From: Agromyces mangrovi
GTDB taxonomy: Bacteria > Actinomycetota > Actinomycetes > Actinomycetales > Microbacteriaceae
Direction of reading: 5' to 3'
Assembly (NCBI RefSeq): GCF_030296695.1
Contig: NZ_AP027737.1
Span: forward strand, 3,348,001-3,412,000
Length of the DNA: 64,000 nt
Of the stretch, positions 31,076 through 37,136 are shown piece by piece; position 1 is the stretch's first letter; every line of letters begins with the position of its first letter. The notes under the pieces were generated by a model. That model searched no databases. It worked only from the letters and a program-made list of their open reading frames with translations, and was not told where the DNA came from. A program made the translations under genes and the position numbers.

Positions 31076-31167
31076 ATGGGCCTTTGTAATGTCCGAAACG
31101 ATCGTGCGGCCCGAGAGTCGGGCCCGGCGGCGTGCCGTCGCATCGATCGGACCCGAGAGGTTTCCGC

Positions 31168-32553
31168 ATGGCACAGACCGAAGCGAAGCAGGACGCGCCT
31201 GCCACGAACGCGAAGTCGACCGCAGCGACCAAGTCGCGCAGCACCACGGCGACTGCGGGCGGCACCGCGAAGAAGGCGCCCGCGAAGCGCACGACGACCA
31301 AGTCGACCGCCGCGAAGTCGACCGCATCCAAGTCCACCGCGGCCAAGGGCACCACCAAGCGCACGACCGCGAAGGCCGCGGAGGAGACGCCCGCCACCGA
31401 GAAGAAGGCACCCGCGAAGCGCGCGGCGACCGGCACCCGCCGCAAGGCCGCGCCGAAGGACGCCGACGAGGACGAGGTCGACGCTCCCGACGCGGAGGAC
31501 GCGCACGACGGCGACAACGACTCGGACGACGGCGACGCCAAGGCGCCCAAGGTGGAGGCGCACCCGACGGGTGCCATCGTGCTCCGCGCCGTGGACGAGG
31601 ACGACGACGTGCCCGTCTACTCGACCCAGATCACGGGTGCGACCGCCGACCCGGTGAAGGACTACCTGAAGCAGATCGGCAAGGTCGCGCTCCTGAACGC
31701 GGCCGAGGAGGTCGAGCTCGCGATGCGGATCGAGGCGGGCCTGTTCGCCGAGGAGAAGCTGTCGCACATGTCCAAGGAGGAGCAGCGCAGCCAGCTCGGC
31801 CGCGAGCTCGCCTGGGTCGCGAAGGACGGCCAGCGCGCGAAGTCGCACCTGCTCGGCGCGAACCTCCGCCTCGTGGTCTCGCTCGCGAAGCGCTACACCG
31901 GACGCGGCATGCAGTTCCTCGACCTCATCCAGGAGGGCAACCTGGGCCTCATCCGTGCGGTCGAGAAGTTCGACTACACGAAGGGCTTCAAGTTCTCGAC
32001 CTACGCGACGTGGTGGATCCGCCAGGCGATCACCCGTGCCATGGCCGACCAGGCCCGTACCATCCGCATCCCGGTGCACATGGTCGAGGTCATCAACAAG
32101 CTCGCCCGCGTGCAGCGCCAGATGCTGCAGGACCTGGGCCGCGAGCCCACGCCCGAGGAGCTGTCGAAGGAACTCGACATGACGCCCGAGAAGGTCGTCG
32201 AGGTGCAGAAGTACGGCCGCGAGCCGATCTCGCTGCACACCCCGCTCGGCGAGGACGGCGACAGCGAGTTCGGCGACCTCATCGAGGACACCGAGGCGGT
32301 CGTGCCGGCCGACGCGGTGGGCTTCACGATGCTCCAGAAGCAGCTCGAGAGCCTGCTCGACTCGCTCTCCGAGCGCGAGGCGGGCGTCATCCGCATGCGC
32401 TTCGGCCTCGGTGACGGCCAGCCGAAGACGCTCGACCAGATCGGCGACACGTTCGGCGTGACCCGCGAGCGAATCCGGCAGATCGAGTCGAAGACGATGG
32501 CGAAGCTGCGCCACCCGTCGCGTTCGCAGTCGCTCCGCGACTACCTCGAGTAG
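31168..32553 (+). CDS. sigA: Principal RNA polymerase sigma factor (SigA/HrdB/RpoD)
   Basis: A 461-residue primary sigma factor. The N-terminal 100 residues are a Lys/Ala/Thr-rich tail with repeated KST units, followed by an acidic stretch; such tails are typical of actinobacterial HrdB. Region 1.2 starts at [16 protein letters not shown], region 2 at [17 protein letters not shown] with [18 protein letters not shown], region 3 at [17 protein letters not shown] and region 4 at [18 protein letters not shown]. The ATG follows CGAGAGG. murT starts 7 nt after the stop. Confidence 0.97.
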
Positions 32554-32560
32554 GCCGCGG

Positions 32561-33826
32561 GTGCGCTACGCGCCGGCGATCCTCGTCGGCCGGTTCGTGC
32601 GATTCCTCGCCCGGCTCCGAAAGCCCGGCGGGGGATCGGCGGTGCCCGGCCTCGTGGTCAACCGCATCGCCCCCGGCTACCTCCCGCACGCGCTCGGCGC
32701 ATTCCCCGACGGCCTCGTGGTCGTCTCCGGGTCGAGCGGGAAGTCGACCACGACGAAGATGCTCGTCGCGGTGCTGCGCGCGCACGACCGCTCGGTCTTC
32801 ACGAACCCGTCGACGGCGAACATCGCGCAGGGCCTGACCTCGGCGCTGCTCGAGCGGGCCGACGTGCGCGGGCGCGTTCCCGGCGACCTCGCCGTGCTCG
32901 AGATGGACGAGGGCCACGGCGCGCGCGTGACGGCGGACCTGCATCCCGACGTGGTCGTGCTCACCAACGTGATGGTCGACCAGATCGACCGGTTCCACGA
33001 CTCCGAGGCGGTCGCGGGGATGCTCGCTCGCATCGCGTCCCGCGCGACGAAGTCGATCGTGCTGAACGCCGACGACGCGTATCTCGTGCAGGTCGCCGCG
33101 GCGGCCGAGCGCGGCGTCGCGGTCGAGCGCTTCGGCGTGAGCGCGGAGGTGCTGGCGGCCGCCCCGCGCGGGCTCGGCAACGCGCGCACCGCAGGTGAGC
33201 GACTCGCGGCGGGCGACGGCGTGCGCATCGTCGGCCTCGCCGGCGACGTGACGACGCTCGAGCTGCACGGACGCGCGGTCGACGTGCGGCTGCCCTCGCG
33301 GGGCATCCACTACGCCGTCGACGCCGCCGCCGCGGTCGCGGGCGCACGGGCGATCCTGGGTCGCGACTTCGACCTCGACGCCGCGGCGCGCGCCGTGAGC
33401 GAGATGCCGGCCGTGTTCGGGCGCGGCGAACGCGTGACCGTGCGCGGCACCGAGGTGGAGTTCGTCCTCGTGCAGAATCCTTCGAGCTTCCAGCTCAACG
33501 TCGACGGCATCGTGCCGGGCACCGAGCAGATCCTGTTCGCGATGGGCTCCGACGTGCGCGACCCGTCGTACTTCTGGCCGGTCGACGCGTCGGGCCTCGG
33601 CTCGGTGCGCGTCGTCTCGGGGTCGAAGGCGCTCGAGGCGGCGCTCCAGCTCGCCTACGACGGCGTCGAGGTCGGCCGGGTCGAGCCCGACCTGCCGACG
33701 GCCCTCGACGAGTTCCTCGCGCTTCCCGCGCCCGAGCACGGCGTGAAGACCATCGTCTTCACCGCCGACTCGATGCGCCGCACCCGCGCCCACCTCGGCC
33801 TCGCCGAGGCGAAGGAGGACGCATGA
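32561..33826 (+). CDS. murT: MurT-like Mur ligase lacking the zinc ribbon
   Basis: A 421-residue Mur-ligase-family protein. In characterised pairs MurT activates the D-Glu alpha-carboxyl of lipid II with ATP and receives ammonia from GatD. The ATP loop is VVSGSSGKSTTTKML (about residue 56), followed by NPSTANIAQGL and LEMDEGHGARV, and the central LNADDAYL. The usual four-Cys zinc ribbon in the middle domain is absent: the sequence passes from NADDAYLVQVAAAAERG straight to AVERFGVSAE, and the whole protein has no cysteine. It starts with GTG and overlaps gatD by 4 nt. See the finding on this pair. Confidence 0.88.
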   Translation: MRYAPAILVGRFVRFLARLRKPGGGSAVPGLVVNRIAPGYLPHALGAFPDGLVVVSGSSGKSTTTKMLVAVLRAHDRSVFTNPSTANIAQGLTSALLERADVRGRVPGDLAVLEMDEGHGARVTADLHPDVVVLTNVMVDQIDRFHDSEAVAGMLARIASRATKSIVLNADDAYLVQVAAAAERGVAVERFGVSAEVLAAAPRGLGNARTAGERLAAGDGVRIVGLAGDVTTLELHGRAVDVRLPSRGIHYAVDAAAAVAGARAILGRDFDLDAAARAVSEMPAVFGRGERVTVRGTEVEFVLVQNPSSFQLNVDGIVPGTEQILFAMGSDVRDPSYFWPVDASGLGSVRVVSGSKALEAALQLAYDGVEVGRVEPDLPTALDEFLALPAPEHGVKTIVFTADSMRRTRAHLGLAEAKEDA

Positions 33827-34554
33827 CGACGCTGTCGGTCGTGAGCCTGTTCCCGAGCCTGCTGAACGTCAACGGCGATGCCGAGAACGGTGACGTGCTC
33901 GCCGCCCGCGCACGCTGGGCGGGGCTCGACGCCATGCACCTGCGCGTCGAGGAGGTCGGTGCGCTGCCGGTCGAGCCGGACGTGATCGTGGTCGGTTCGG
34001 GCACGGATGCCTCCGCCGAGGCCGCGATCGAGCGCATCGCACCGCTGCAGGACGAGCTGCGGCGCTGGGCGACCGAGGGCGTGCCGATCCTGGGCGTCGG
34101 CACCGGCATGGAACTGCTCGGCTGGGGCATCGAGTTCGCCGACGGTCGCACGATCGAGGGGCTCGGCATCGTGCCGGGTCGAGCGGTGCCCCGCGAGTCC
34201 CGCGTGAGCGACGACCTGGTCGTGCGCACGAAGCACGGCCTGCTCGTCGGGTACGAGAACCACGCGCGCGACTACGTCGGTGCGGAAGGCTCGCCGCTCG
34301 GGCGCGTCGTGCGCGGCAGCGGCAACGGCCGCGACTCCGGGCAGGAGGGCGTGGTGATGGGCTCCGTCATCGGGACGCACCTGCACGGCCCCGTGCTCGC
34401 GAAGCAGCCGGCCCTGGCCGACGCGATGCTCGCCGCGGCGGCCGAGCGGCGCGGGGTCGCCTACGCCACGGGCGGGCCGGCCTCGGAGGCGGACGGCTAC
34501 GCCGAGCGAGCGCGCGCGATCATCCTCGAGCGACTGGGCGTCTCCGAGCGCTGA
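33823..34554 (+). CDS. gatD: GatD-like glutamine amidotransferase without catalytic cysteine
   Basis: A 243-residue class I amidotransferase-like protein, partner of MurT. The fold markers are present: LNVNGDAENGDVLAARA at the start, VGYENHARDYVG, and THLHGPVLAKQPALAD with the catalytic-type His (about residue 188). But the nucleophile motif, usually VCGGYQLLG, reads VGTGMELLG: Gly (codon 34099-34101) replaces Cys, and there is no cysteine anywhere in the protein. Conserved residues flank the change in the same frame, so it is not a frameshift artefact. It should not hydrolyse glutamine. Translationally coupled to murT. Confidence 0.88.
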   Translation: MTTLSVVSLFPSLLNVNGDAENGDVLAARARWAGLDAMHLRVEEVGALPVEPDVIVVGSGTDASAEAAIERIAPLQDELRRWATEGVPILGVGTGMELLGWGIEFADGRTIEGLGIVPGRAVPRESRVSDDLVVRTKHGLLVGYENHARDYVGAEGSPLGRVVRGSGNGRDSGQEGVVMGSVIGTHLHGPVLAKQPALADAMLAAAAERRGVAYATGGPASEADGYAERARAIILERLGVSER

Positions 34555-34879: not shown

Positions 34880-35043
34880 GGCTCCTCCTTAGTACGTGCA
34901 CCGAATTCCTAGGGTGCATCCATGAAAGCACGGCCGACCTGTGCGTTCGTCCTGCAGCGGCGGTATTTCGCTCAACGCGTACAGTCGGCGAGCGGATGCC
35001 CCGAGGCGGGGTGTCGGCGTCGGCCCGGCGCCCGGCGCGCGGG

Positions 35044-35049
35044 TAGTCT
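35044..35049 (+). promoter_or_regulatory. -10 box, leaderless start of parE
   Basis: TAGTCT ends 8 nt before the GTG start codon of parE, and no ribosome site intervenes. Confidence 0.45.
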
Positions 35050-35057
35050 GGACGGTC

Positions 35058-37136
<2,079 letters not shown>

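Follow-up and report, generated by a model that had tools for sequence, protein, structure and literature searches.

The closest described relatives of the gene pair discussed here are the MurT–GatD complexes of Staphylococcus aureus, Streptococcus pneumoniae and Mycobacterium tuberculosis. In S. aureus, MurT alone is inactive and requires GatD; replacement of the nucleophilic cysteine (Cys) of GatD by glycine (C94G) abolishes the use of glutamine, and the mutant complex amidates with ammonia at pH 8.5. MurT is also reported, under 'data not shown', to replace MurE in vitro in making UDP-MurNAc-Ala-Glu-Lys (PMC3266927). The window analysed here, a whole stretch of 64,000 nucleotides (nt) from Agromyces mangrovi (contig NZ_AP027737.1), contains a homologous two-gene operon that shares with the described systems the Mur-ligase fold, the ATP-site residues, the GatD fold and the equivalents of GatD R128 and MurT D349. 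It differs from them in the loss of the nucleophile Cys, the oxyanion Gly and the channel Tyr of GatD and of the gate Arg of MurT, in a remodelled C-terminal loop of MurT, and in its fixed location between rpoD and parE. What is new here is the split at the rpoD locus between Cys-less and Cys-bearing pairs, and the occurrence of a CofE-like ligase at the same site; the finding is a locus, not merely a gene pair. The two genes are as follows.

32561..33826, + strand: murT, Cys-less class II, 421 amino acids (aa), GTG start; Mur ligase with the P-loop GSSGKSTTT and without the zinc ribbon.
33823..34554, + strand: gatD, Cys-less GATase_3 protein, 243 aa, ATG start.

The open reading frames (ORFs) overlap by 4 nt, and neither product contains a cysteine. 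Membership of the superfamily is indicated by the adjacency of murT-like and gatD-like genes, both of which were present in every locus listed, and by folds that match the solved complexes: the predicted structures were confident, the MurT model fitting Mur ligases and the GatD model fitting solved GatD over 239 residues. Structure searches with these models returned no match naming a nucleophile. The Mur_ligase_M domain of MurT scored 56 bits against a cut-off of 24. Both proteins fell far below the NCBIfam equivalogs for lipid II isoglutaminyl synthase, MurT with 85 bits against a cut-off of 800 and GatD with 107 against 450 and 75 against 400. No second MurT_C match was found in the host genome (one contig of 3.6 megabases), and the single match scored below the family cut-off. 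As compared with MurC to MurF, MurT has a shorter N-terminal part (PMC6113224) and a GatD partner, and its acceptor is presumably lipid-linked.

Residue roles in both subunits were taken from PMC6085368, PMC6113224 and PMC5871853, the channel-gate role of pneumococcal MurT R135 coming from PMC6085368. Class I pairs keep the nucleophile Cys. The tallies compare 104 Cys-less rows of classes II and III (44 + 60) with 43 class I rows, named loci included, and count rows rather than independent events; two genomes were entered twice (L071/L346 and L133/L329), and a GatD recount without repeats comprises 102 rows. Because the nucleophile column was itself the basis for sorting rows into classes, the loss of Cys is a matter of definition and the residues lost together with it are the informative part. 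The four altered positions are the following.

34099..34101, + strand: GatD G93 (codon ggc), in the motif VGTGMELLG; aligns to S. aureus GatD Cys94, and is thus the same change as C94G.
33871..33873, + strand: GatD N17; class I has the channel-plugging Tyr, 43/43 rows against 0/102 Cys-less rows.
33997..33999, + strand: GatD S59; class I has the oxyanion-hole Gly (S. aureus G60), 43/43 rows against 1/102 Cys-less rows.
32975..32977, + strand: MurT V139; class I has the channel-gate Arg (pneumococcal R135), 43/43 rows against no class II/III row.

The two ammonia-channel residues, MurT Arg135 and GatD Tyr30 in pneumococcal numbering, therefore correspond to V139 and N17 in the window. Four further features, retained wholly or in part, are these:

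32729..32749, + strand: MurT P-loop GSSGKST, residues 57–63, including K61.
34201..34203, + strand: GatD R127, the glutamine-capture residue (S. aureus R128); Arg in 101 of the 103 Cys-less rows with a letter at this position.
34375..34389, + strand: GatD THLHG, residues 185–189; His188 (S. aureus H189) is present.
33545..33580, + strand: MurT C-terminal loop GSDVRDPSYFWP, residues 329–340; class I has NDxYADGRDxSWLWD, and D334 (S. aureus D349) is retained.

MurT K61, E114, N87, R288 and D334 are each found in 104/104 Cys-less class II/III rows, and the clade as a whole accordingly keeps the P-loop Lys (K61), the Mg-binding Glu (E114) and the hinge Arg (R288) of a Mur ligase. Both partners of the catalytic triad, GatD His189 and MurT Asp349 in S. 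aureus numbering, are present in the window as H188 and D334. Across the clade the position of His188 is more variable, with His in 73/104 rows and Gln, Gly or Lys in most others; in the Clavibacter GatD proteins (L330 and L333) His is lost besides Cys, the motif reading HLGGP. The class I loop of MurT is swapped in the Cys-less clade for forms like that of the window or like DEGTPDPSWIYD.

The ratio of nonsynonymous to synonymous substitution rates (dN/dS) was 0.04–0.17 for MurT in 10 of 11 species pairs of classes II and III, one pair having a saturated dS, and 0.09–0.32 for GatD in 11 such pairs, one of them with a dS near saturation. The values were 0.085 and 0.063 for one class IV pair and 0.09–0.17 for two class I pairs. 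The joint loss of the ammonia residues and the invariance of the ligase residues imply that the ammonia route has been dismantled and the ligase kept. In the aligned residues, Cys, oxyanion Gly, channel Tyr and the gate Arg of MurT, which make up the glutamine-to-ammonia machinery, have disappeared together; the parts that serve ATP-dependent ligation are all in place, and purifying selection acts on both subunits. The original prediction, made from the window alone, had described a GatD with Gly for its nucleophile, a preserved His motif and no Cys in either protein, which G93 and THLHG bear out, and had taken the 4-nt overlap as a sign that selection maintains both genes, a view that the low dN/dS across the Cys-less clade upholds.

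GatD matches were obtained in 155 of 199 genomes of the family Microbacteriaceae. At the level of the order, the window GatD as query matched 73 of 198 genomes; the remaining 125 gave no match, a count limited by the sensitivity of the query. Section 6 of PMC6085368 calls murT–gatD universal in Actinobacteria; the gaps at the level of the order, together with the pair-less genomes described below, speak against this. Outside the family the nucleophile Cys was present in all loci examined, 23 and then 20/20 more. The 104 loci extracted within the family, the window included, fall into class I (14), class II (37), class III (45), class II' (3) and class IV (5). In a tree of MurT and GatD, whose topology alone is considered, classes II, II' and III group together in a single clade that contains no Cys-bearing member. 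Class IV, a Cys-less pair whose MurT has a four-Cys ribbon, is placed apart from this clade; its five loci (L100, L101, L104, L105 and L112) are very divergent, four of them lying at the rpoD site, and in g125 a class IV pair occurs together with a CofE-like gene. A small third Cys-less group with an HRW motif consists of L076, L078 and L103. The flanks of L076 and L103 contain no rpoD, and each of these two is the second pair of a genome that also carries one of class II.

Among the 155 GatD-matching genomes of the family, 77 were confirmed as Cys-less by sequence; for the others the sequence was not retrieved or belongs to class I or IV. The 16S gene of the host is 97.5% identical to that of Agromyces ramosus, the next best value being 95.2%, among the 80 named loci listed; this places the host in Agromyces or close to it and agrees with the family, Microbacteriaceae, assumed in the original prediction. 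Within the genus of the window, the nucleophile position is Gly in the four further sampled genomes with a GatD match (G021, G193, G054 and G153), and a fifth congener (G139) is without the pair. Three genomes (G251, G263 and G356) contain a class III pair and, elsewhere, a class I pair, which argues against reading the Cys-less pair as no more than a failing amidase.

The named genomes are a sample, 50 of at least 80 named loci having been searched with a GatD profile: 27 gave strong matches, one (a metagenome-assembled genome of Rhodoluna) a partial match, and 22 none or a weak one. Two weak loci that were inspected resemble another amidotransferase and retain Cys. Class II comprises Agromyces ramosus, three Cryobacterium, Glaciibacter superstes and Naasia; class III comprises two Leifsonia, two Clavibacter, two Herbiconiux, four Curtobacterium, one Frigoribacterium, Labedella, Mycetocola and strains 3FA27C10 and SN12; class I comprises four Leucobacter, Agrococcus jejuensis and Aurantimicrobium minutum. 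Leifsonia aquatica (G412) has a second GatD match (C6:71297-72013) with one TGA listed, which is possibly just the end of the frame. A strong match to a GatD of the MurT–GatD type was found in 0/14 named Microbacterium tested, and a MurT profile matched 0/17 of the pair-less genomes tried. Mur_ligase_M matches were counted in 14 pair-less genomes: ten have five, which we read as MurC to MurF plus FolC, three (G418, G432 and G435) have six, and one (G393) has eight. A gene with a strong Mur_ligase_M match, putatively murE, lies outside the murF–murD–murC cluster in the seven Microbacterium counted, two Salinibacterium, Klugiella and Mycetocola (G391–G393, G396, G397, G399, G401, G405–G407 and G434); this putative murE adjoins murF in Agromyces, Clavibacter, Curtobacterium, Leifsonia, Herbiconiux and Leucobacter.

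In the window the Cys-less pair is flanked by the following genes.

31132..32553, + strand: rpoD, encoding the primary sigma factor; next gene upstream of the Cys-less pair.
34941..37136, + strand: parE/gyrB-type topoisomerase subunit B; downstream neighbour, its start being the ORF start as listed.

The C-terminal 273 aa of the rpoD product are 92–97% identical across the 23 named genomes searched. A same-strand rpoD lies upstream of 44/45 class III and 12/13 class II loci, that is, 56/58 Cys-less class II/III loci are just downstream of rpoD, as against 0/14 class I loci of the family. On the other side, a same-strand parE follows 36/45 class III and 11/13 class II loci.

Other species carry a CofE-like amide ligase at the site of the pair instead. 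In 12 of 22 named genomes (eight Microbacterium, a Salinibacterium, Gulosibacter, Homoserinibacter and Frigoribacterium sp. CG_9.8), rpoD is followed by a protein of about 233 aa belonging to PF01996, the F420-0:gamma-glutamyl ligase family; after rpoD the other ten have murT (two), parE (four) or none of the genes asked for (four). Whole-genome searches with GatD and CofE-like profiles found, among the 199 family genomes, 27 with a strong CofE-like match (E <1e-100) and 155 with GatD, with an overlap of 0 and 17 genomes matching neither; this exclusion has a Fisher p of 4e-22, relatedness being ignored. The CofE-like gene adjoins rpoD in 24/30 loci. Ten genera hold both states, including that of the window (through G139), one of them (g130) by way of a class IV pair, and in the genus holding Microbacterium, as delimited by rpoD, three genomes with class III pairs are nested among CofE-like Microbacterium. 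On a tree of rpoD DNA the state switches from pair to CofE-like gene or back at least 21 times, eight of these switches being forced by starred branches; the rows of the tree (62/37/8) include the repeats L435/L455, L437/L457 and L105/L482, the last of which was scored as CofE despite the class IV pair that comes after it, and omit L453, which is too short.

Like CofE, the coenzyme F420-0:L-glutamate ligase, the rpoD-site gene of pair-less genomes belongs to PF01996, as seen in 4/4 proteins scanned. Unlike CofE, it scores only 29–31 bits against the TIGR01916 cut-off of 181 (two proteins scanned) and also occurs where CofD of the F420 pathway was not found. CofD was detected in 19 of 42 handles with a CofE-like gene and not found in 23, at least two genomes being counted twice, so that F420 synthesis cannot be the general role of the CofE-like gene. 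Among the CofE-like loci, 22/30 have a PF14397 ATP-grasp gene as a neighbour and 4/30 a gene of the Ala-racemase family; the ATP-grasp gene also accompanies 3/5 class IV pairs, and the racemase-family gene 26/45 class III pairs. Neither was found beside any of the 13 class II loci read, nor in the window.

What reaction might these ligases share? Microbacteriaceae are known for group B murein, in which the cross-bridge hangs on the alpha-carboxyl of D-glutamate (D-Glu), so that the enzyme attaching it must activate that carboxyl, as MurT does. Since Fem transferases and D-Asp ATP-grasp ligases activate the incoming amino acid, they should not perform this step. To our knowledge, the enzyme responsible for joining D-Glu to the bridge residue of group B peptidoglycan is not known. 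PF01996 ligases, for their part, activate a carboxylate and then couple an amino acid to it through its amine. The replacement of the pair, at one locus, by another carboxylate-activating amino-acid ligase thus fits a shared job. We propose, at odds of roughly one in two, that the locus encodes a ligase whose nucleophile at the D-Glu alpha-carboxyl of group B murein would be an amino acid rather than ammonia. MurT would phosphorylate the alpha-carboxyl of D-Glu-2 in a precursor that is probably lipid-linked. The activated carboxyl would then be attacked by an amino-acid amine, that of the bridge residue being the likeliest (D-diaminobutyric acid, D-Dab, in Agromyces and Clavibacter), and the cross-bridge would start from there. 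GatD would be an obligatory structural partner and, because the glutamine-capture Arg is kept, possibly also an amino-acid pocket; where the pair is missing, the CofE-like enzyme would do the equivalent job. We infer the amino-acid nucleophile from the replacement at the locus and from precedent: the S. aureus results cited above, with C94G and with MurT in place of MurE, mean that GatD can be required by its partner even when catalytically dead and that MurT can take an amino acid. In Microbacterium, Gly is the bridge residue next to D-Glu. For Clavibacter michiganensis, D-DAB is described as joining D-Glu to D-Ala (PMC9603630), and the murein of Agromyces aureus is given as B2gamma (PMC5217419); bridge types of genera are tabulated in PMC7033078, PMC5945732 and PMC10757982. 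Full-text searches for a link between MurT–GatD or a CofE-like ligase and attachment of the group B bridge yielded none among the matches listed. Set against the table of PMC7033078, the named genera lend no support to the idea that subclasses II and III correspond to different diamino acids.

A broader reading, to which we give slightly less than even credence, is that the interval between rpoD and parE may be an exchangeable cassette that provides the opening step in building the group B cross-bridge, the ligase present setting the amino acid that is added. Non-homologous carboxylate-activating ligases (Cys-less MurT–GatD of classes II and III, the ribbon-bearing Cys-less class IV, and the CofE-like PF01996 proteins) would interchange there, often accompanied by an ATP-grasp or racemase gene.

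Several observations weigh against these proposals. In the Leucobacter, Agrococcus, Klugiella and Aurantimicrobium genomes inspected, neither ligase follows rpoD, the search of Leucobacter for a CofE-like gene covering this site alone; rpoD adjoins parE in Klugiella, which is without the pair, and in Aurantimicrobium. Leucobacter and Agrococcus jejuensis have a canonical Cys pair, Aurantimicrobium has a Cys pair of the ribbon type, and the wall of Leucobacter salsicius is reported to contain DAB (PMC4148977). The locus is thus not required by every wall of the family, and the 17 of 199 genomes matching neither GatD nor the CofE-like profile likewise leave the pattern short of every family genome. 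A weak CofE-like match coexists with a pair in G250, G317 and G340, the order in G317 being rpoD, CofE-like gene, class IV MurT and class IV GatD. The racemase gene beside class III pairs may be a housekeeping alr. Section 7 of PMC9603630 lists 'amidation or hydroxylation of D-Glu' among the muropeptide modifications of Clavibacter, and two Clavibacter genomes, of strains other than the one in that source, each have one MurT–GatD pair, which is Cys-less; this would fit ammonia as the nucleophile. Bridge chemistry for most genera considered here is general background or derived from tables, and the case is built on sequence comparison and literature, so that the function of the window pair is a predicted one.

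Two markers that had been put forward do not hold. A strict coincidence of Cys loss with group B murein was rejected, as within the same family the Cys pair persists in four Leucobacter, Agrococcus jejuensis and Aurantimicrobium minutum, and 14/14 named Microbacterium tested gave no match to a GatD of the MurT–GatD type. Loss of the MurT zinc ribbon as a companion of Cys loss fails as well: the strict CxxC..CxxC ribbon was not seen in 22/23 Cys-bearing MurTs outside the family and 12/14 inside it, and most Cys-bearing relatives thus do without it. PMC6113224 also describes the ribbon in a subset of MurTs only. The rest of the original prediction stands in part. Its dead glutaminase and preserved ligase are supported, with selection across the family and another ligase at the locus added to them; of the two roles suggested for GatD, scaffold or donor binder, that of scaffold gains backing from the S. 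aureus C94G precedent (PMC3266927).

Alternatively, the pair might still produce D-isoglutamine from dissolved ammonia with GatD as a mere scaffold, which we consider unlikely. Mammalian carbamoyl phosphate synthetase 1 (CPS1) similarly keeps a Cys-less glutaminase domain and draws free ammonia, although its synthetase is unrelated. With GatD C94G as its partner, S. aureus MurT accepts NH3 or NH4Cl for amidation at pH 8.5 (PMC3266927, Table 2), whereas the same experiment recorded no use of NH3 at pH 7.5. The D-Glu amidation reported for Clavibacter (PMC9603630), set beside the Cys-less pairs of the two other Clavibacter genomes, would also favour ammonia. However, the canonical Cys pair that three genomes keep as well would then be redundant, a CofE-like ligase would be an unexpected replacement for an amidase, and group B murein needs that carboxyl for its bridge.

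It is also doubtful, in our view, that MurT couples an amino acid or another amine to a different precursor carboxyl or as a substituent outside the bridge. The MurT loop that has been likened to the lysine loop of MurE (PMC3266927, PMC6113224) is remodelled in the clade, and the ATP-grasp genes beside CofE-like loci and class IV pairs hint at more than one coupling. Asn87, however, the equivalent of pneumococcal N85, the proposed holder of the acceptor carboxylate, is invariant in the 104 rows, which points to the same acceptor group. Even less probable is a pair of regulatory pseudo-enzymes that would bind ATP or lipid II without catalysis and control other wall enzymes. The position matched by alignment to S. 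aureus N267, where N267Y is inactive (PMC6113224), is D254 in the window and Asp in 103/104 Cys-less MurTs; yet invariant P-loop Lys, Mg-binding Glu, hinge Arg and acceptor Asn would be unusual for a pseudo-ligase. Sequencing error or decaying pseudogenes, in whose favour nothing was found, are refuted by the same residue in four congeners, by the large Cys-less clade and by dN/dS values far below 1.

The pair represents a natural case in which a glutaminase subunit has been kept by selection after its catalytic apparatus was lost. For the attachment of the bridge residue to D-Glu, a single locus offers two candidate enzymes together with a strong genetic pattern. Our results suggest that the rpoD site of Microbacteriaceae holds a missing enzyme behind the unusual cross-links of their walls.

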